This document shows, in pieces, positions 2,163 to 10,878 of a DNA stretch of 64,000 nt. The stretch spans positions 1 to 64,000 of the forward strand of contig CAJADF010000108.1 of assembly GCA_903938485.1 (NCBI GenBank), in the 5' to 3' direction. The notes under the pieces were generated by a model that was not told where the DNA came from, did not search any database, and worked only from the letters and a program-made list of their open reading frames with translations. The position numbers and the translations under genes were made by a program. The stretch's first letter is position 1. Every line of letters begins with the position of its first letter. The DNA is from an uncultured Methylococcaceae bacterium. Lineage in GTDB: Bacteria > Pseudomonadota > Gammaproteobacteria > Methylococcales > Methylomonadaceae.

Positions 2163-2435
2163 TTACAGCTTGTATTTTTCTTTTAATTTTTCTATGCATT
2201 CCGAACAGATGATATCTAAATTACCGAGCTTAACGGTGACAACTTCTGCAAATATCTCATCGTTTTCATTTTTTTTACATATTATGGTATGTCCATCTTT
2301 GCAATGATTTATTTCCTGATTGTTAGTTAATTGAAGCCATTCAGCAAAACTAATTTCATTTTTTGTAAAAATTTCATTATCTGTACTAATGTTAATCCAT
2401 TTCCTCATTTCTTCTGTAGGCGATAGTGTGTTCAT
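2163..2435 (-). CDS. 90-aa Cys/His-rich protein of the radical SAM cassette, unknown function
   Basis: I do not recognise this protein. It is 90 aa, soluble and acidic to neutral, with two clusters of potential metal ligands: H44, C45, H49 and C53 (HC-x3-H-x3-C) and a CxxC at C77/C80 near the lysine-rich C-terminus. That is compatible with a small zinc ribbon or Fe/Cu-binding fold. The ATG is preceded by AAGGG at a spacing of about 7, a convincing ribosome binding site. It lies just beyond the hairpin that follows the 34-aa peptide gene, so it is probably expressed at a reduced level from the same transcript. Possible roles, all inference: partner or carrier of the peptide, metallochaperone, or immunity/sensor protein. 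Confidence 0.6.
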   Translation of the reverse strand: MNTLSPTEEMRKWINISTDNEIFTKNEISFAEWLQLTNNQEINHCKDGHTIICKKNENDEIFAEVVTVKLGNLDIICSECIEKLKEKYKL

Positions 2436-2454
2436 TTTTATACCCTTATTCCAT

Positions 2455-2491
2455 GTTAAAAATTAAATGAGGTGACCATGCAGCCACCTCA
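2455..2491 (-). terminator. Hairpin plus U-tract after the peptide gene: attenuator
   Basis: Read on the minus strand, TGAGGTGGC pairs with GTCACCTCA (one G-U pair) around the loop TGCATG, followed at once by TTTAATTTTT. It sits 9 bases after the stop of the 34-aa peptide gene and about 30 bases before the next gene. This is the layout of a partial terminator that lets the peptide message outnumber the downstream message. Confidence 0.6.
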
Positions 2492-2499
2492 CAAACGCA

Positions 2500-2604
2500 T
2501 TAACTTCTGTAGTTAACACCACAGTTAGCGTCGGTCTGAGAAGGGCAACCAGTTAAAGGTTTACGTTCTACAGATACTACTTTTGAAACGCCTAATTTTT
2601 TCAT
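2500..2604 (-). CDS. 34-aa two-cysteine peptide, candidate RiPP precursor
   Basis: An unannotated short gene of 34 codons directly downstream of the radical SAM/SPASM gene. The product begins MKKLGVSK, has a lysine/valine-rich leader-like half, and ends in a hydrophilic core TGCPSQTDANCGVNYRS with C20 and C28 and a near-terminal Tyr. An in-frame TGA lies upstream, so this ATG is the only reasonable start. A weak GAG ribosome binding site lies 9 bases upstream, and a much better AAGGGG serves a five-codon mini-gene whose stop overlaps this ATG. Size, position beside an RRE-containing maturase, polar Cys-containing C-terminus and downstream attenuator are all typical of RiPP precursors. It is not a methanobactin, PQQ or mycofactocin precursor as I know those. 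Expression and modification are unproven. Confidence 0.65.
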   Translation of the reverse strand: MKKLGVSKVVSVERKPLTGCPSQTDANCGVNYRS

Positions 2605-2631
2605 GTTATTAATCTCATAAATTCACCCCTT
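2601..2631 (-). promoter_or_regulatory. Strong SD and five-codon mini-ORF coupled to the peptide gene
   Basis: On the minus strand AAGGGGTG (2624-2631) lies 5-7 bases before an ATG at 2618. That ATG opens the mini-frame ATG AGA TTA ATA ACA TGA, whose TGA overlaps the ATG of the 34-aa peptide (ATGA). This suggests translational coupling or leader-peptide control of the precursor. Confidence 0.35.
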
Positions 2632-2675
2632 AAACGGTGGATGTTCCCGTACTCTTTACTAAATAGTAATAGAAT

Positions 2676-4454
2676 TTAGTCCATCTTCACTTGTAAAGAT
2701 GCAAATTGTTCTCTGATAGGCTCAAATGCATGCAATGACTGGACATTCCATTTGGAACCATAGTTAAGCCATGTTTCACCGTATGCTGTTACATAGGTTT
2801 GAGACTGATCGGTTTCATCTGATTTTTTTAAGCTCTCCAAGGAAGTTCTTGGATCAAGATGATTCGCTGTACCGCGAGCGGGTTCAGGTATTTCAGGCCG
2901 TTCTGACGGTTGCTGCGAGCCATAATTTTCAGCCAAATTAAAGGCAGCTGCCACAGACTCACGTGTTTCACCACTTCTTAATAGCAAAGCAGCAAACATA
3001 CGGGCATTAGCCGTTCGGCAATTAGTGGTAGATGGTGCCAAGGCTCTACCGGTTTCCATTAAAGCCATGCCCGGACATTTGGTACACCAGCGACAACGTA
3101 AATGCGTGCTACATTCCTCGTAATCTTCAAGCCTTACATCCTGCCATGCCGCAAGATTTTTAGTGGTTTCATTGAGCGCAAGTGTTTTATCGGTTTCTTG
3201 CAGGTTGCTTTTTTGCACGTCTGTTATTTGTGCGCGTTGCCCTAATGCGGAATGCCAAATATCCAAGGGATCATCGGTATGTAAATTACCTGAATTGATG
3301 GTTAATGAATTACAAGGATAGATTGACCCATCGGCTGAAAAGTTTAAACCGGCATAACCTGCTGCACAGACCGTCGCTTTTTGGTCTTTGATAAACTCGC
3401 CGTAGTTATTTTCTTCAGTACCGACAAAGATAGGGAAACCTTCTGTCATAGCAGCAAGAATGAGTTCTTGGGGATCTGAGGTAGACATTAACATCGGCGC
3501 AATAGCACCATCGACGCCAGGACTTAAACCGATTTCTGTTTCTGGTGCTGCGTTTAATTCCTTGGCTAAATCTAGCGTACCAACATAACTTTTTAGTGTA
3601 TGTGACATTTGTACAGACTTTAGACTGGTACGCACGCCTCGTTCATTCATCGCTTTAAGGGCAGTAACGGTTTTATCAAATGACCCTGGCACCCGTGTTA
3701 TATCATCGTGAACTTTGGGCACATGACTATAAATTGAAAAGCTAACTGTAGACGGCCATAAGTCGCACAGTTTATTAATATTCGCTTCATCCAGCTTTAG
3801 GCCATTGGTATAAATATTAACCGCCATACCTAATTGACGCGCTGCCTCAACGATTTCAAAGAAATCTTTGCGCAGCATAATTTCGCCGCCGGATAAGGTT
3901 AGATGAAAAACACCGCCCTCAGCCAAACGTTTAAGGCTGGTAATGACTTGTTCGGTTGATAATTCATTATTAAGGCGATCTGGTTTTTCAAAATCAGAGT
4001 GTGCCGCACCGGGATTGTAACAATGCACACAACGCTCATTACAGCGATAAGTTAATTCCCAATGCGTTGAATACATAAAACCTTGAGCCATCACCCAAGA
4101 CTGGAAGTCATTTTCTGGTTTTATATTGTCAGCAAACTCAAGTGGCTTTGCTGTTGGCACAGGTAAAGGTTTATTGTTTCCGTTATGATCAGGATCAACT
4201 AATAAACCCAATTCTTTAAACTCAGTTAATAAGCCATCTAACTCTTCTGCAACCTCTAGTTCAGTAGCTAAAGCGTATAAGTTTTGGTAGCTGATGCCTT
4301 TTTCTATCTCATGCCAAAGTTCAGCCGACAAGTCATCTAAAAAGACTTTGGTGTGATCACGCTCATTAGCAATAATGGATCGCGTTTCTTTAGATGCGGT
4401 TTTATACGTGCGCCAAGCGGTCCAAGGCGCTGGTTTTAGATGAGTATTGTTCAT
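2676..4454 (-). CDS. Radical SAM/SPASM peptide maturase with N-terminal RRE-like domain
   Basis: 592-aa enzyme predicted to modify a ribosomal peptide by radical chemistry. Residues about 10-88 resemble a PqqD-like RiPP recognition element (winged-helix pattern). The radical SAM cluster motif is C138-x3-C142-x2-C145, followed by GGE at 189-191, the SAM-binding glycine motif. The SPASM region has C363-x12-G-x4-C381, then C448, C454, C457, C460 and C479, enough ligands for two auxiliary Fe-S clusters. A C-terminal extension of about 110 residues, rich in Pro/Glu then aromatics, is not part of the usual fold. It is longer than the roughly 350-450 aa common for SPASM proteins because of the extra ends. 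Neighbours are a 79-aa gene upstream and the 34-aa peptide gene 71 bases downstream. The family is certain; substrate and bond formed are unknown. Confidence 0.88.
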   Translation of the reverse strand: MNNTHLKPAPWTAWRTYKTASKETRSIIANERDHTKVFLDDLSAELWHEIEKGISYQNLYALATELEVAEELDGLLTEFKELGLLVDPDHNGNNKPLPVPTAKPLEFADNIKPENDFQSWVMAQGFMYSTHWELTYRCNERCVHCYNPGAAHSDFEKPDRLNNELSTEQVITSLKRLAEGGVFHLTLSGGEIMLRKDFFEIVEAARQLGMAVNIYTNGLKLDEANINKLCDLWPSTVSFSIYSHVPKVHDDITRVPGSFDKTVTALKAMNERGVRTSLKSVQMSHTLKSYVGTLDLAKELNAAPETEIGLSPGVDGAIAPMLMSTSDPQELILAAMTEGFPIFVGTEENNYGEFIKDQKATVCAAGYAGLNFSADGSIYPCNSLTINSGNLHTDDPLDIWHSALGQRAQITDVQKSNLQETDKTLALNETTKNLAAWQDVRLEDYEECSTHLRCRWCTKCPGMALMETGRALAPSTTNCRTANARMFAALLLRSGETRESVAAAFNLAENYGSQQPSERPEIPEPARGTANHLDPRTSLESLKKSDETDQSQTYVTAYGETWLNYGSKWNVQSLHAFEPIREQFASLQVKMD

Positions 4455-4514
4455 AAACTTTTGTTATTTAAGATTGATTCTTTTTTGATAAGACAGTCAT
4501 TTAAAAAATAACTA

Positions 4515-4754
4515 TTATGCGTTTGTGGACTTATCGTTAGTTATTCCAGTCGCCCAGTATTTAACGCCATTAATATCAATCTCATTCCAATTCTGCATCT
4601 CACTTCCATCAATCGCTTTTAACTTATCAATAAGAGTCTTCATTGCTGCTACATCAGTCTCTTTTGGCACAAACACCAATGCTTTGGGCGAATTTATTGG
4701 GTCGCCAATACCTGCAAGTCGTTTAATATCTTCAATCATTAAATCTTTATTCAC
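4515..4754 (-). CDS. 79-aa protein opening the radical SAM cassette, unknown function
   Basis: Small soluble protein that I do not recognise: MNKDLMIEDIKRLAG at the start, then a stretch ending in 'INGVKYWATGI'. No Cys, no signal peptide and no membrane segment. The GTG start is supported by AGGA at a spacing of 7. It is the first gene of the minus-strand cassette, 60 bases before the radical SAM gene, and its promoter region is shared with a divergent XRE regulator. The N-terminal helix could in principle be a leader for the maturase, but the sequence is long and lacks an obvious Cys- or Gly-rich core, so I favour an accessory or binding protein. The overlapping plus-strand frame is a shadow without a ribosome binding site. 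Confidence 0.55.
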   Translation of the reverse strand: MNKDLMIEDIKRLAGIGDPINSPKALVFVPKETDVAAMKTLIDKLKAIDGSEMQNWNEIDINGVKYWATGITNDKSTNA

Positions 4755-4795
4755 GAACAGTTCCTAAATAATATTTTCTCTAAATAAACACATAA

Positions 4796-4877
4796 AACAA
4801 CATAATTCGTTGTTTAAATATTCAACATATCCAATTCTTTCATGAAACTATTTTTAGGTCAACCATATATGTTGAAT
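4796..4877. promoter_or_regulatory. Divergent promoter/operator region with inverted repeats
   Basis: Between the 79-aa gene and the XRE gene there are two inverted repeats. AACAAC...GTTGTT lies at 4796-4814. An 11-bp perfect pair ATTCAACATAT (4820-4830) / ATATGTTGAAT (4867-4877) has its second arm covering the likely start codon of the regulator. Candidate operators for autoregulation and cassette control. Confidence 0.4.
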
Positions 4878-5291
4878 TTAAATACGACATTTATGACTGA
4901 CAAATACTCATCACCACTAAATAAAACAAGTACAGAAAAGGAACCCATAGGGATTCGCTTATCAAAAAATATTGCTAACAGGCGCAGAGAACTTGGTCTA
5001 ACCCAGGCGCAATTAGCTGAAAGAATGGGAATTGAACCTGAGACTTTATCTAGATTTGAACGAGGCAAACATTTGCCTTCACTGGGTACACTTGAGAAAT
5101 TAGCGGATTTATTATTGGTTTCCGTTGCTGACTTATTAGCCGAACAACCACAGATGGCTGATGACGATGCGTTAATTTTTACATCTTGGATATCTGACCT
5201 AAGTGCCGCGGATAGGTCGTTTGTTCATAACATCTTGAAGCAGTGTTGCGATTATTTAGGACAGAAATCAAGAGCCAATCAGTCTTCATAA
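4869..5291 (+). CDS. XRE-family helix-turn-helix regulator
   Basis: A 140-aa (from ATG 4869) DNA-binding protein. The Cro/CI-type HTH spans roughly residues 36-90, with the classical 'RRELGLTQAQLAERMG' helix pair and 'ETLSRFERGKHLPS' recognition segment. A short C-terminal helical region with two adjacent Cys follows. I chose the ATG at 4869 because an AGG lies 10 bases upstream; an ATG at 4842 and one at 4893 are also possible. It is transcribed away from the peptide cassette and is the obvious candidate regulator of it. Ligand or signal is unknown. Confidence 0.85.
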   Translation: MLNLNTTFMTDKYSSPLNKTSTEKEPIGIRLSKNIANRRRELGLTQAQLAERMGIEPETLSRFERGKHLPSLGTLEKLADLLLVSVADLLAEQPQMADDDALIFTSWISDLSAADRSFVHNILKQCCDYLGQKSRANQSS

Positions 5292-5342: not shown

Positions 5343-5650
5343 TACAGCGTGTCTCGACTCTCATAACACGGTTCCACACTCTGACGACATGTCTCGAGCA
5401 TCTGTTGACAAGGTTTAAGCAATTGGCGACAAGTGTCGAGTAGTCTGAGGCAGGGTTAGCAAGCCTTGCGACACGTCTCGCCATCATACAATTTGAGCCG
5501 ACAACTTCTTGCGGCTTGTGGCAATATTTTCAACACGTCTGGCAAAGGTTGCTAGATGTGTCAACAGAGTGTGGAACCGTGTTAACTAGTCGTTGAGACT
5601 CCATACTAAACAACGCAAATCGCCTTAAGTTATAACCGAGACGTCTCTCA
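5343..5650. repeat. Degenerate 21-bp tandem repeat array with inverted flanks
   Basis: Noncoding stretch built of alternating, diverged 21-bp units. Clear unit starts are 5364, 5385, 5406, 5427, 5448 and 5469. Odd units share CGACAnGTSTCGA (5385, 5427, 5469, with relatives at 5345 and 5531), so this motif recurs every 42 bp. The even units share a GACAAGGTT-like core. A perfect 19-bp inverted repeat (AACACGGTTCCACACTCTG at 5365-5383, complement at 5565-5583) encloses the array. Inverted copies of the motif follow up to a GAGACGTCTC palindrome near 5638. No open frame explains it. The rest of the 636-bp gap up to 5927 holds no gene that I can see. Confidence 0.7.
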
Positions 5651-5927: not shown

Positions 5928-6623
5928 ATGAGCACGACTTACTATATGCCGACTAATGACAGCGGCAAAGCTGACTTACTAGATCATTTAGCCAATAATC
6001 TAACCCAATATCAAACCGTACTCGCCATTAGCGCTGAGGATATCGCAGGTGTCTTAGCGGATGCACTGAGCTTTAGATACACACTCCAATCTATGTTCGA
6101 TATGCAAGCTTATGGGCAAGCATGGACTGAATATAAGAACCTATCACGCGACGGTACTCCTGGCTTTTCTACTGCCACTTGGCCGGTGGCCCCTTTATTA
6201 GTTTTACCGACACCTGCGGCCGTTGTACCGGGTATTATTCCGCGCCTATCTAAGTTAGTGGCTCGCATTAAAACCAACAAAAACTATACGGCGGCTATTG
6301 GCCAAGACTTATGGTTGGTGGGTACGCATAGCCCGATTGATCCTTCTACGTGGAAACCCATTTTAAGCTTACAAAATAACGCAGGGCACCCCACTATTGT
6401 CTGGACTAAAGGGGATGCTACCGCTATTGAAATATGGGTTGATCGTGGTGATGGCGCTAATTTTGTGTTACTGACGATGAACACCGAACCCAATACCCCA
6501 GATGCCTCACCTTTGCCCCCTGCCGGGACCAGTGCAGCTTGGAAATATAAGGCTATTTACCATTACCACGATGCCCAAGTAGGGCAATGGAGTGATGTGA
6601 TTAGTGTCGCCGTTGGCAATTAA
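5928..6623 (+). CDS. Hypothetical protein, 231 aa, fibronectin-III-like C-terminus
   Basis: I cannot assign a function. Residues about 1-75 look helical ('DLLDHLANNLTQYQTVLAIS'), followed by a Pro-rich linker and a beta-rich C-terminal region. There 'IEIWVDRGDGANFVLL' and 'WKYKAIYHYHDAQVGQWSD' resemble fibronectin type III or carbohydrate-binding beta-sandwich strands. No signal peptide or membrane segment. The ATG has AAGGA about 8 bases upstream. The gene stands alone between the 21-bp repeat array and a bidirectional terminator, and its codon use is somewhat more GC-rich than its surroundings, so acquisition by transfer is possible. Confidence 0.6.
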   Translation: MSTTYYMPTNDSGKADLLDHLANNLTQYQTVLAISAEDIAGVLADALSFRYTLQSMFDMQAYGQAWTEYKNLSRDGTPGFSTATWPVAPLLVLPTPAAVVPGIIPRLSKLVARIKTNKNYTAAIGQDLWLVGTHSPIDPSTWKPILSLQNNAGHPTIVWTKGDATAIEIWVDRGDGANFVLLTMNTEPNTPDASPLPPAGTSAAWKYKAIYHYHDAQVGQWSDVISVAVGN

Positions 6624-6684
6624 TAAACATCTTCGCCTATTTGACATAGCATCTTGTTTGATTAACGATGTAACTATTAACAAT

Positions 6685-6715
6685 CTCAGGCTTAATCTTA
6701 TTAATTAAGCCTGAG
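6685..6715. terminator. Bidirectional terminator between convergent genes
   Basis: CTCAGGCTTAAT / ATTAAGCCTGAG, a perfect 12-bp stem with a 7-base loop, followed by TGTTTTA on the plus strand. It separates the 231-aa gene from the converging helicase gene. Confidence 0.75.
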
Positions 6716-6753
6716 TGTTTTAAATCAACAACTCAACAGTAATCAGTTTAGCT

Positions 6754-8070
6754 TTAAGATTTACCTCTAGAATTTGATCTTCCTTTACCTCTGGAATCCG
6801 CTCGTTGACCCCCTGCACCTCTGCCAGCAGGCGCTTTTGCTGCCTTAGCCCCTGGTTTTTTAGTATGCCGAAAATCTTTTTTACCATTAGCACTAGGCGC
6901 ATTCTTTTTAGGCGCATCCATCACTTTTAAAGACACCGGTTCATAGCCGGTATCTTCTACCCGTGGAATGTGACGTTTAAGTAGTTTTTCTATTTCCACT
7001 AATTGCCAAGCTTCTTCTGGACACACTAATGAGATAGCCGCGCCACTTGATCCGGCTCTACCGGTACGACCAATACGATGAATATAATCTTCTGGCACTT
7101 GCGGTAAATCAAAGTTAATCACATGCGGTAAATCATCAATATCTAAACCGCGTGCCGCAATATCTGTCGCCACTAAAGCGGACACTTTACCGGTTTTAAA
7201 CTGTTCTAAGGCTTTATTACGCGCCCCTTGAGTTTTATCGCCATGCAAAGCTGCCGTGCGTATGCCATCTTCTATTAGTTGTTTCTCAAGACGATCAGCA
7301 CCGTGCTTAGTACGCACAAAAATCAGCACTTGTTTCCAATTATTACTCCCAATCAAATACGAGATTAATTCGCGTTTATACTCACGTCCAATACCGTACA
7401 CCAACTCTGTAACATTTTCGGCCGTCGCATTTTGCTTAGCCACTTCTACTTCTATGGGGTTATTTAATAACTGGCTAGCTAAAGATTTAATCGCATTGGG
7501 CACCGTTGCAGAAAACAATAAGCTTTGACGCTTTTTAGGCGCCAGCGTCATAATCTGTTTAATATCCGGCATAAAGCCCATATCCAACATTCTATCTGCT
7601 TCGTCTAGCACTAAGACTTCAATATTGGATAAATTAACATGACGTTGATTAACATGATCAATTAAGCGCCCAGGTGTTGCCACGATAATATCACAGCCGC
7701 GTTTTAGGTCACGGGTTTGCATGCCTACACTCGCACCACCCACGACAGATTGAATCTGCAAGGGCAAATATTTGCTATAAGCAATCACGTTTTCATAAAC
7801 TTGCGCCGCTAATTCACGGGTAGGCACTAGTATTAAAGCGCGCACTCGCCGCGGATTTTGCTCTGGATTATGGGTAGCAACTAAACGCTGCAATAAGGGC
7901 AAAGTAAAACTAGCAGTTTTACCGGTACCGGTTTGCGCACCGGCTAAAACATCCCTACCTTCTATAATAAGCGGGATTGCTTTTTGTTGTATGGGAGTGG
8001 GCGTGGTATAGCCTTGATCAGCTACCGCCTTAAGGAGTTCATCGATTAAGCCGAGTTGAACAAAAGACAT
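6754..8070 (-). CDS. rhlE: DEAD-box ATP-dependent RNA helicase, RhlE type
   Basis: 438-aa RNA helicase involved in RNA remodelling, ribosome assembly or turnover. Visible motifs in order: Q motif region 'GYTTPTPIQQ', Walker A AQTGTGKT (45-52), 'PTRELAAQ', 'TPGRLID', DEAD (156-159), SAT (187-189), 'ARGLDIDDLP' and 'HRIGRTGRAG'. A basic, Gly/Arg/Ser-rich tail of about 60 residues follows the core, the RNA-binding tail usual for RhlE-like proteins. I use the ATG at 8070 (AGAGG seven bases upstream) rather than the TTG one codon earlier. Monocistronic, ending toward a strong terminator. Confidence 0.88.
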   Translation of the reverse strand: MSFVQLGLIDELLKAVADQGYTTPTPIQQKAIPLIIEGRDVLAGAQTGTGKTASFTLPLLQRLVATHNPEQNPRRVRALILVPTRELAAQVYENVIAYSKYLPLQIQSVVGGASVGMQTRDLKRGCDIIVATPGRLIDHVNQRHVNLSNIEVLVLDEADRMLDMGFMPDIKQIMTLAPKKRQSLLFSATVPNAIKSLASQLLNNPIEVEVAKQNATAENVTELVYGIGREYKRELISYLIGSNNWKQVLIFVRTKHGADRLEKQLIEDGIRTAALHGDKTQGARNKALEQFKTGKVSALVATDIAARGLDIDDLPHVINFDLPQVPEDYIHRIGRTGRAGSSGAAISLVCPEEAWQLVEIEKLLKRHIPRVEDTGYEPVSLKVMDAPKKNAPSANGKKDFRHTKKPGAKAAKAPAGRGAGGQRADSRGKGRSNSRGKS

Positions 8071-8111: not shown

Positions 8112-8867
8112 TTATACCAGTACCGCTTCCACCTCTTCGCAACTAATCACATTTTTATTAACCTGCAATATGTAGTTAGCTAATTTAGTAATGGCTTGCC
8201 AGTGACCGGCATGACCAACAAATTCACACGCTTGCTTAAACAGCTCAGCCATTTTAGCTTCTTGTAATGTCTCATTTTTAGAGAAGCTCTCTATGTATTC
8301 ATGCACTAATTCTAAGTCAGCTTCGCCACCATAATTTTTTAAAGCCGCTAGATTAACCATTTTAAGGGTAAATAATTCATCATCTCGACTATAAGAATAC
8401 TTAGCTTCTGCTAAAGGCCCGACTAATAAGTTGATAATATCCGCATCAAAAGCGCTTAAATACGCCGCTGTTGAGGTTAAAACCACCCCTTCTTGCACCA
8501 AAAGGTCTTTACTTAAGTCAGCAATGTTAGGTACAAAATCTTCAATTAAACGGCCGCCGTCTACTCTTGAGGTGCATTGATCATGCATCGCCTGAAAGCA
8601 AGTGTCATTGGCATCAATAATAAACTGACTATCATTGATAATAATTTGAAAATAAATGGGTGGGAGGTTATGCGCTTTATTATTTAAATAAATGGCGGCG
8701 GCATGACCGGCTTCATGAAATGCGATAGCTTGTTTTTGCAACTTTTGCTTATGGGCATTATGGCTATCTGTTGAGTGTTTACGTTTCATATTAATCACTA
8801 TAGTGAGGGAGAGTAAAAGCCGGTACATGACAAACCAGGACAGACTCTCTGGTTTATTGGCGGACAT
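8112..8867 (-). CDS. HEAGH-motif (peptidase M41/FtsH-like) protein
   Basis: 251 aa, or 225 aa if translation begins at the ATG at 8789. 'AIAFHEAGHAAAIYL' contains the HExxH zinc-peptidase motif in the HEAGH form of M41/FtsH proteases. A second acidic cluster ('YGGEADLELVHEYI') may supply the third ligand. The AAA ATPase domain of FtsH is absent, so this is at most a stand-alone protease-like domain. The longer start has AGG at a suitable distance and adds a hydrophobic segment ('WFVMYRLLLSLTIVI') that could anchor the protein in the membrane; the shorter start would be cytosolic. Located just upstream of the helicase on the same strand, 38 bases apart. Protease activity is unverified. Confidence 0.6.
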   Translation of the reverse strand: MSANKPESLSWFVMYRLLLSLTIVINMKRKHSTDSHNAHKQKLQKQAIAFHEAGHAAAIYLNNKAHNLPPIYFQIIINDSQFIIDANDTCFQAMHDQCTSRVDGGRLIEDFVPNIADLSKDLLVQEGVVLTSTAAYLSAFDADIINLLVGPLAEAKYSYSRDDELFTLKMVNLAALKNYGGEADLELVHEYIESFSKNETLQEAKMAELFKQACEFVGHAGHWQAITKLANYILQVNKNVISCEEVEAVLV

Positions 8868-9060
8868 TCTAACACCTAAGTTTAGGCACTCCTAACATTC
8901 ATTTTGTAAAACGCGAATTAATATTAGCGTTAGCCTAACAATCCTTGTCAGCTATTTACCACAGTGGAGTTTATATCGCTTTACATAACTGCTTTCTTTA
9001 ATCTAGAAAATAACTTCTAGGGTATAATTTCTTAACACATCAAGCTTAATATCACTGCAA

Positions 9061-10878
9061 ATGCGTATTCATTCACTGCCAATTCAATTAGTTAACCAAA
9101 TTGCCGCGGGCGAAGTAGTAGAACGACCGTCCTCTGTCGTTAAAGAATTAGTAGAAAATTGTTTTGATGCGGGCGCACAACAAATCATTATTGATATTGA
9201 ACAGGGTGGCGCCAGATTAATTAAAATTAGAGATGATGGGTGCGGTATTGATAAAGAAGATTTGCCTCTAGCACTCTCTCGACATGCCACCAGTAAAATT
9301 GCCAGCCTACAAGATTTAGAACAAGTAGCCAGTATGGGCTTTAGGGGGGAGGCATTACCCAGTATTAGCTCTGTCGCTAGACTCACTTTAATATCAAGAA
9401 CTGCAGATGCGGAATGTGCGTGGTCTGTGTGTGCAGATGGTACCGAAAGAAATTTTGATCCTCAACCGGATCCACACCCCTTAGGTACTACGGTGGATGT
9501 GCAAGATTTGTTTTACAACACCCCGGCTAGACGCAAGTTTTTAAAAGCCGAAAAAACCGAGTTTGCGCATATTGAGACCTTAATCAAACGCATGGCTTTA
9601 AGCCGTTTTGATATCAGTTTTGTCTTAACGCATAATCAAAAAGAAATCTTAAATCTAAGGCAAGCACGTGAGCTTTCTGCACAAGAACAGCGAGTCGCAG
9701 ACATTTGTGGCCCTGAGTTTATTAAAAATTCAGTGTCTATCGATTATTCTGCCTCTGGCTTGCAACTGAGTGGTTGGGTAGGCCTACCGACCTTTTCGCG
9801 TAGCCAACAAGACATGCAATTCTTTTACGTAAATGGCAGGCTTGTTAAAGATAAGTTGGTGTCCCATGCCGTTAAACAAGCCTATCAAGATGTGCTTTAT
9901 CATGGCAGACATCCAGTTTTTGTTTTATATCTAACATTAGATCCCACTTTAGTGGATGTTAATGCACATCCAGCAAAAACAGAAGTGCGTTTTAGAGAAG
10001 GAAGATTAGTACATGATTTTTTATTCTCAGCACTGCATCGATCTTTAGCCAATGTAAGACCGGGGCAATCTAATAATGTTTTAGAAACAGAAGCTTTAGA
10101 GTACGAACCTACTACTCATACTTCGTTTGATACGGGGGGCAATTTAAATAAACAGTCCAGTTATACTTCAAGACCACCTCAACAAAGGATACTGCCCTAT
10201 TCTGTAGGCGAATCCATCAGAGCGTATGCAAAGTTATATCAAGAAACGCCAACCTATTCAGGCGAACATTTAACATCTGATCCAGTACCTGTTACCCCAC
10301 CATTGGGCTACGCCATTGCACATTTGCACAATATTTATATCTTAGCGGAAACAGCGAACGGCATTATTTTGGTGGATACTCATGCCGCACATGAACGTGT
10401 CACTTATGAGCGATTAAAACACCAACATGCTGAAGGCGCTATTCCAAGTCAGCCATTATTATTACCTATTAAATTAAGCGTAACGGCAGCTGAAGCTGAT
10501 TTAGCTGAGCTAGAACAAGAGTTCTTTACGTTATTAGGGTTCGAACTTAATCGTTCGGGCCCAACAACGTTAACTCTACGTGCATCTCCGGCTTTATTAC
10601 GCAATGTGGATAAAGAACAATTAGTTAGAGATGTATTAGCTGACTTGTCAGTTAATGGCATCAGTCAACGCATTGAAGAACACACGAATGCTATTTTAGC
10701 GGCTATGGCATGTCATGGTTCTGTTCGTGCACATCGACGTTTAAGTATTGATGAAATGAATACTTTATTGCGGGATATGGAACAAACCGAACGTATAGGC
10801 CAATGTAATCATGGCAGACCCACTTGGATTGCATTATCTACTCAAGATTTAGATAAGTTTTTTCTACGGGGACAATAG
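9061..10878 (+). CDS. mutL: DNA mismatch repair protein MutL
   Basis: 605-aa GHKL ATPase that couples MutS mismatch recognition to strand incision. ATPase motifs: E32-N33...D36-A-G, DDGCGID (58-64) and GFRGEAL (93-99). The C-terminal half contains DTHAAHERVTYE near residue 439. This matches the DQHA(x)2E(x)4E metal-binding endonuclease motif (Q replaced by T), with the partner CHGSVRAH and CNHGRP motifs. MutL from this organism is therefore probably an endonuclease, as in bacteria that lack MutH. The linker (about 335-420) is low in conservation, as usual. It is followed by miaA, the common gamma-proteobacterial order. Confidence 0.95.
   Translation: MRIHSLPIQLVNQIAAGEVVERPSSVVKELVENCFDAGAQQIIIDIEQGGARLIKIRDDGCGIDKEDLPLALSRHATSKIASLQDLEQVASMGFRGEALPSISSVARLTLISRTADAECAWSVCADGTERNFDPQPDPHPLGTTVDVQDLFYNTPARRKFLKAEKTEFAHIETLIKRMALSRFDISFVLTHNQKEILNLRQARELSAQEQRVADICGPEFIKNSVSIDYSASGLQLSGWVGLPTFSRSQQDMQFFYVNGRLVKDKLVSHAVKQAYQDVLYHGRHPVFVLYLTLDPTLVDVNAHPAKTEVRFREGRLVHDFLFSALHRSLANVRPGQSNNVLETEALEYEPTTHTSFDTGGNLNKQSSYTSRPPQQRILPYSVGESIRAYAKLYQETPTYSGEHLTSDPVPVTPPLGYAIAHLHNIYILAETANGIILVDTHAAHERVTYERLKHQHAEGAIPSQPLLLPIKLSVTAAEADLAELEQEFFTLLGFELNRSGPTTLTLRASPALLRNVDKEQLVRDVLADLSVNGISQRIEEHTNAILAAMACHGSVRAHRRLSIDEMNTLLRDMEQTERIGQCNHGRPTWIALSTQDLDKFFLRGQ

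Follow-up and report, generated by a model that had tools for sequence, protein, structure and literature searches.

An RRE-fused radical SAM/SPASM maturase with a two-cysteine precursor peptide beside family-9 glycosyltransferases in an uncultured Methylococcaceae bacterium

What does a small group of genes at the edge of a methanotroph contig make, and which of its neighbors belong to it? The window analyzed here is the whole 64,000-nucleotide stretch of contig CAJADF010000108.1 from an uncultured Methylococcaceae bacterium. A preliminary description had placed a radical-SAM RiPP cassette at positions 2163-5291, consisting of a regulator, a 79-aa protein, a maturase, a two-cysteine peptide and a 90-aa Cys/His protein, and had raised the possibility of a metal-related or redox-cofactor role for the product. 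All of these open reading frames were found at the positions reported for them on the window contig.

The maturase gene (2676-4454, minus strand) encodes 592 aa, and its product has homologues in other genomes and matches Pfam Radical_SAM (4.6e-22) and SPASM (1.6e-4; residues 363-407, above the cut-off). Ten cysteines are invariant in the seven aligned maturases, namely the radical SAM cluster ligands C138xxxC142xxC145 (4020-4043, minus strand) and seven in the SPASM region (C363, C381, C448, C454, C457, C460 and C479; 3018-3368, minus strand), and His451, which lies in the same region, is likewise invariant. For residues 1-90 (4185-4454, minus strand) the prediction gives three strands and then three helices, at block pLDDT values of about 63-87, and this model aligns to the RRE of the lasso-peptide TbiB1-leader complex (Z 11.7, rmsd 2.4, 82 residues), which supports the prediction of an RRE-like fold at the N-terminus. 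Except in the RRE and parts of the SAM barrel, the prediction is poor (mean pLDDT 45 overall). The barrel model aligns to many radical SAM enzymes, of which SkfB ranks first and SuiB and PqqE are further examples. The sactisynthase SkfB is also the best sequence match among solved structures, and the fold relatives include the C-C cyclase SuiB, PqqE and the epimerase EpeE. No NCBIfam maturase family reached its cut-off with this protein, the best being GeoRSP, NirJ, StsB, PqqE and others; for the PqqE, MftC, SkfB, AlbA, StsB, GeoRSP, ACGX and GDL motif families, the best scores were 54-120 bits, compared with cut-offs of at least 265. Because these scores are far below the curated cut-offs, the maturase belongs to none of these NCBIfam equivalog families, in agreement with the preliminary description, which had matched the locus to none of the PQQ, mycofactocin, methanobactin, SCIFF/ranthipeptide and Xye loci. 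The long C-terminal extension noted earlier is indeed present (approximately residues 537-592), but it is specific to four close genomes.

Six relatives of the window maturase were identified, at 38-93% identity: five in a single methanotroph family, where they span two genera, and one in a betaproteobacterial MAG. Three of them belong to the same genus and share 91-93% identity (G014, G020 and G006), a fourth from this genus is much more divergent (G030, 38%), and the remaining two come from another genus of the family (G750, 39%) and from the betaproteobacterial MAG (locus L034, genome G427, 41%). The close relatives are Methylococcaceae MAGs. Counting the window's own genome (G000), the cassette was present in six of the 237 genomes of the family that were searched. 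The maturase family looks rare, since samples of 369 genomes from the class and 398 from the phylum yielded no further member at a threshold of E ~1e-60, and the searches for plasmid and viral relatives returned distant radical SAM proteins only. Two candidates were rejected: a match on a Thiodictyon plasmid, which is accompanied by YcaO/TfuA genes, and a Bryobacteraceae locus (L035), which showed no GC-x7-CG peptide. At the betaproteobacterial locus, the RRE (L034 5968-6279) and the radical SAM domain (6245-7591) are not encoded in one frame, as would result from a sequencing error, a natural frameshift or a division into two genes. On either side of the G750 cassette is a stretch of a neighboring gene (L049 1-293 and 3406-3698), the two being 94.6% identical, which suggests either that the cassette was inserted between copies of a duplicated gene or that the assembly produced the arrangement.

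Evidence on the nature of the locus comes from the short gene that follows the maturase. The preliminary description had considered the case of maturase homologues that are never accompanied by a small two-cysteine peptide, and the result was the opposite: at all seven loci, the window and its six relatives, a short open reading frame with a KLG leader and a GC-x7-CG core lies directly downstream of the maturase gene. In the window this gene (2500-2604, minus strand) encodes 34 aa, with the KLG-motif leader MKKLGVSKVVSVERKPLT and the core GC-PSQTDAN-CGVNYRS. Alignment of the seven precursors revealed invariant residues at K3, L4, G5, G19, C20, C28 and G29 (window numbering), so that the stretch C20-x7-C28-G29 (2518-2547, minus strand) consists of a variable loop within a constant frame. 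Of 3,107 open reading frames in the DNA analyzed, each 25-80 codons long, these precursors alone contained the GC-x7-CG motif. The 34-codon frame is therefore not a chance occurrence, given that an orthologue follows every homologue found, that it evolves in the manner of a coding sequence, and that its motif appears in no unrelated frame. Taken with the predicted RRE and the invariant Fe-S ligands, the seven loci bear out the earlier reading of a radical-SAM RiPP cassette with an RRE-fused SPASM maturase and a two-cysteine precursor, and we have very little doubt that the two genes form a maturase-precursor pair. A five-codon mini-ORF (2601-2618, minus strand), placed behind a good ribosome-binding site and ending in a stop codon that overlaps the precursor ATG, is arranged in this way in the four close genomes, and this layout suggests that its translation may be coupled to that of the precursor.

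The two parts of the precursor have evolved very differently. In the four close genomes, pN was 0.011 and pS 0.140 for leader codons 1-20, compared with 0.458 and 0.300 for the seven inter-cysteine codons and 0.104 and 0.558 for codons 28-33, values that rest on few codons and few genomes. The leader is under purifying selection, in plain contrast to the loop, where the excess of amino-acid change suggests diversifying selection. Within the core, the flanking Gly-Cys and Cys-Gly are the only residues shared by all seven precursors. A constant leader joined to a variable loop is typical of RiPP precursors, and it agrees better with a bioactive peptide that is secreted, for example as a signal or a narrow-spectrum antimicrobial, than with a redox cofactor. 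The idea that the peptide is a redox cofactor or binds metal, as an analogue of PQQ, mycofactocin or methanobactin serving the C1 metabolism of the host, draws on the membership of the host in a family of methanotrophs, on the presence of mycofactocin and PQQ maturases among the weak profile matches, and on the capacity of two cysteines to bind metal. However, a cofactor would need a fixed core, and here amino-acid sites of the inter-cysteine core evolve faster than silent ones; the cassette is also confined to six of 237 family genomes, and the maturase scores far below the PqqE and mycofactocin cut-offs. Because the precursor core is variable, we consider a cofactor role very improbable, and the metal or redox function proposed earlier finds little favor in a core that changes this quickly.

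The chemistry that the maturase may perform on the precursor can be approached through its auxiliary cluster ligands. The thioether-forming enzymes RumMC2 and CteB have one auxiliary cluster with an open site (PMC8172795), in contrast to SuiB and PqqE, which are without such an open cluster site (PMC8326336). Since the SPASM region of the present enzyme has seven cysteines rather than eight ligands, it would be expected to have one auxiliary cluster with an open site, and by analogy this lends moderate support to thioether formation. The invariant His451 could, on the other hand, be the eighth, missing cluster ligand, which would weaken the argument. It is also conceivable that the maturase makes a C-C or C-O crosslink, or an epimerized residue, at positions other than cysteine, and that the cysteines merely form a disulfide after export. 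The occurrence of SuiB, PqqE and EpeE among the fold relatives, the possibility that His451 fills the open cluster site, and the fixed spacing of the two cysteines, which would suit a disulfide, are consistent with this alternative; however, known C-C crosslinking maturases act on aromatic or Lys acceptors, and no conserved aromatic or Lys acceptor was found in the core of the seven precursors. We regard modification away from the cysteines as rather unlikely, and thioether chemistry on the precursor as a proposition for which the chances are evenly balanced.

The boundaries of the locus proved to be wider than first described. Two family-9 glycosyltransferase genes follow on the minus strand, glycosyltransferase a (1012-2055; 347 aa; Pfam Glyco_transf_9, 5.3e-12) and glycosyltransferase b (34-1011; 325 aa; Pfam Glyco_transf_9, 6.8e-18). 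The left edge of the window is a contig end that overlaps another contig of the same genome, C34, by exactly 141 bases, and past the overlap C34 carries a gene for an MsbA-like ABC transporter of about 591 aa. The join is supported by G014, where glycosyltransferase b followed by the ABC gene is intact on a single contig. The order on the minus strand is then the 79-aa protein, the maturase, the precursor, the 90-aa protein, glycosyltransferase a, glycosyltransferase b and the ABC transporter. The cassette at 2163-5291 is real, but its limits were set too narrowly: the locus takes in positions 34-2055 and the ABC gene on the overlapping contig, so that two glycosyltransferases and an exporter had been missed.

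Whether these added genes act on the peptide is a separate question. The system might instead comprise only the maturase, precursor and regulator, with the glycosyltransferase and ABC genes representing an adjoining cell-surface glycan locus that was co-inherited. Such an explanation gains from the resemblance of the glycosyltransferases to LPS heptosyltransferases and of the ABC protein to the lipid A flippase MsbA, and from the distant loci: at all three, no glycosyltransferase lies beside the cassette in the DNA seen, and G030 has a family-2-like sugar transferase several genes away. It is less easily reconciled with the constancy of strand and gene order, which holds even as the gene that separates the precursor from the glycosyltransferase varies, or with the absence of close homologues from the 42 searched genomes that are without the cassette. 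Among 46 genomes, close homologues of glycosyltransferase a were found only in G000, G006 and G020, of glycosyltransferase b only in G000, G014 and G020, and of the ABC protein only in G000, G006 and G014, the G020 contig stopping short of the ABC position. At the thresholds used, each of the four cassette carriers thus has at least one of the three genes, compared with none of the 42 others. Because the four carriers are closely related, this co-occurrence may partly reflect ancestry. The Ser/Thr-rich loops PSQTDAN, PSSSEAF, PSSSTSS and PSSQEAF are those of the glycosyltransferase-bearing clade. The best NCBIfam model for the ABC protein is MsbA, below its cut-off, and bacteriocin exporter models also score; the glycosyltransferases match TIGR04414 (Aah/TibC type) weakly (E 0.011). 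Weighing these observations, we lean away from a merely adjoining glycan locus while still giving it appreciable credence, and glycosylation of the peptide is the reading that we favor by a little.

The other neighbors differ from one locus to the next. The 90-aa protein (2163-2435, minus strand) was unique to the window's genome among 61 genomes, and the 79-aa protein (4515-4754, minus strand), which has no Pfam or NCBIfam match, was common to the window's genome and G020 only among the same 61, lying beside the maturase in both; we therefore treat them as an unconserved and a variable accessory gene, respectively, and not as components of the cassette as earlier proposed. In G006 and G014 a lipoprotein-like gene fills the slot before the maturase. 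The divergent XRE-type HTH regulator (4842-5291, plus strand; 149 aa; Pfam HTH_3, 2e-15) has an 87% identical copy in the same place in G006, and no regulator of that similarity was present beside the other maturase loci. Near it in the window is a 31-bp inverted repeat (5364-5394 and 5554-5584; 87% complementary, arms 159 bp apart), which may mark a small mobile element. Downstream of the precursor, G014, G020 and the betaproteobacterial locus share a gene of about 300 codons (L031 3181-4095, L032 3531-4445 and L034 ~8800-9699) that is absent from the window's genome. Its product (304 aa) has no match in Pfam, NCBIfam or PHROGs; residues K78, H213, N226 and DFE (235-237), compared by eye, recall a kinase-like fold, which is a guess. 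Mutually similar proteins of 66-69 aa are encoded right after the precursor in G030 (L037 1754-1954) and G750 (L049 501-710), the G030 copy having no family match. In G006, a putative 2OG-Fe(II) oxygenase gene downstream of a glycosyltransferase (L033 9382-9960) possibly encodes a further tailoring enzyme. No leader protease was recognized nearby.

Two of the distant relatives carry a feature that may bear on expression of the maturase. In G030 and G750, a tandem repeat of the octanucleotide GCCAAACA, in about 9.5 copies, occurs where the maturase open reading frame begins (L037 3712-3787 and L049 2472-2549). Because 8 bp is not divisible by three, a change in copy number would shift the frame. 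At the G030 repeat, the ATG that has a good ribosome-binding site does not share the frame of the maturase, and G750 has a second upstream ATG that does. This is the layout of a putative phase-variable (contingency) gene, as judged from the assemblies alone. No octanucleotide array was found in the window's maturase copy.

Together, these results suggest a path from gene to product. The RRE of the 592-aa enzyme would bind the constant KLG leader, as its predicted fold and the conservation of the leader imply, and the radical SAM center would abstract a hydrogen from the core. One or both of the cysteines framing the loop may then serve as thioether donors, giving a small crosslinked ring. Judging from operon position and co-occurrence, a sugar is probably added to Ser or Thr of the loop by the two family-9 glycosyltransferases, and the product probably leaves the cell through the MsbA-like ABC protein. 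We consider it likely that the locus is a RiPP biosynthetic operon whose product is a modified, exported peptide other than a cofactor. Only tentatively, and with considerable doubt, do we propose the full combination as a new class of RiPP. In this scheme a variable C-x7-C loop would be closed by an RRE-SPASM enzyme and glycosylated by two family-9 (heptosyl-type) transferases before MsbA-like export, and in two relatives an octanucleotide repeat would make the maturase phase-variable. The maturase-precursor family is compact, and with a core so tiny, clearly bounded and fast-diversifying, two short genes suffice for a direct test of the chemistry. If the family-9 transferases do act on the peptide, LPS-type heptosyltransferases would be linked to RiPP tailoring. 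The product is a candidate mediator of competition or signaling among methanotrophs, whose RiPPs other than methanobactin have, to our knowledge, been little studied.

A literature search, which left subscription papers largely outside its reach, found no matching description of the cassette and no paper joining LPS-type heptosyltransferases with RiPP tailoring; a survey of methanotroph gene clusters mentions RiPP-like clusters, in passages that do not include this system (PMC11964084). Several known systems nevertheless share some of its traits. Glycocins and the autotransporter heptosyltransferases Aah/TibC provide precedents for glycosyltransferase genes beside a small peptide gene and for the family-9 fold, respectively. 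The glycocins known to us involve no radical SAM enzyme, and their transferases belong to other families. The PQQ and mycofactocin systems also rely on a radical SAM/SPASM peptide maturase (PqqE, MftC) and RRE-guided recognition, but the present enzyme scores below both cut-offs, and the precursors have a fast-evolving core without the conserved Glu-Tyr or Val-Tyr. Ranthipeptide systems (SCIFF/CteB, freyrasin/PapB, NxxcA) resemble it in their RRE and SPASM enzyme, Cys-containing core and auxiliary cluster with an apparently open site; however, the six-cysteine SCIFF core is absent from the present precursors, each of the seven having two cysteines, as is the Cys-x3-Asp pattern, and no ranthipeptide family was among the best NCBIfam matches of the maturase. 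Sactipeptide systems (SkfA/SkfB, AlbA, StsB) have in common with it a radical SAM maturase that is fused to an RRE and carries auxiliary clusters at its C-terminus, a short Cys-containing leader-core precursor and an exporter nearby. Here, in contrast, the maturase scores far below the skfB, AlbA and StsB cut-offs, just two cysteines frame a seven-residue variable loop, and glycosyltransferases are present in the operon. The system is thus an RRE-SPASM RiPP that is unusual in its pairing with family-9 glycosyltransferases.
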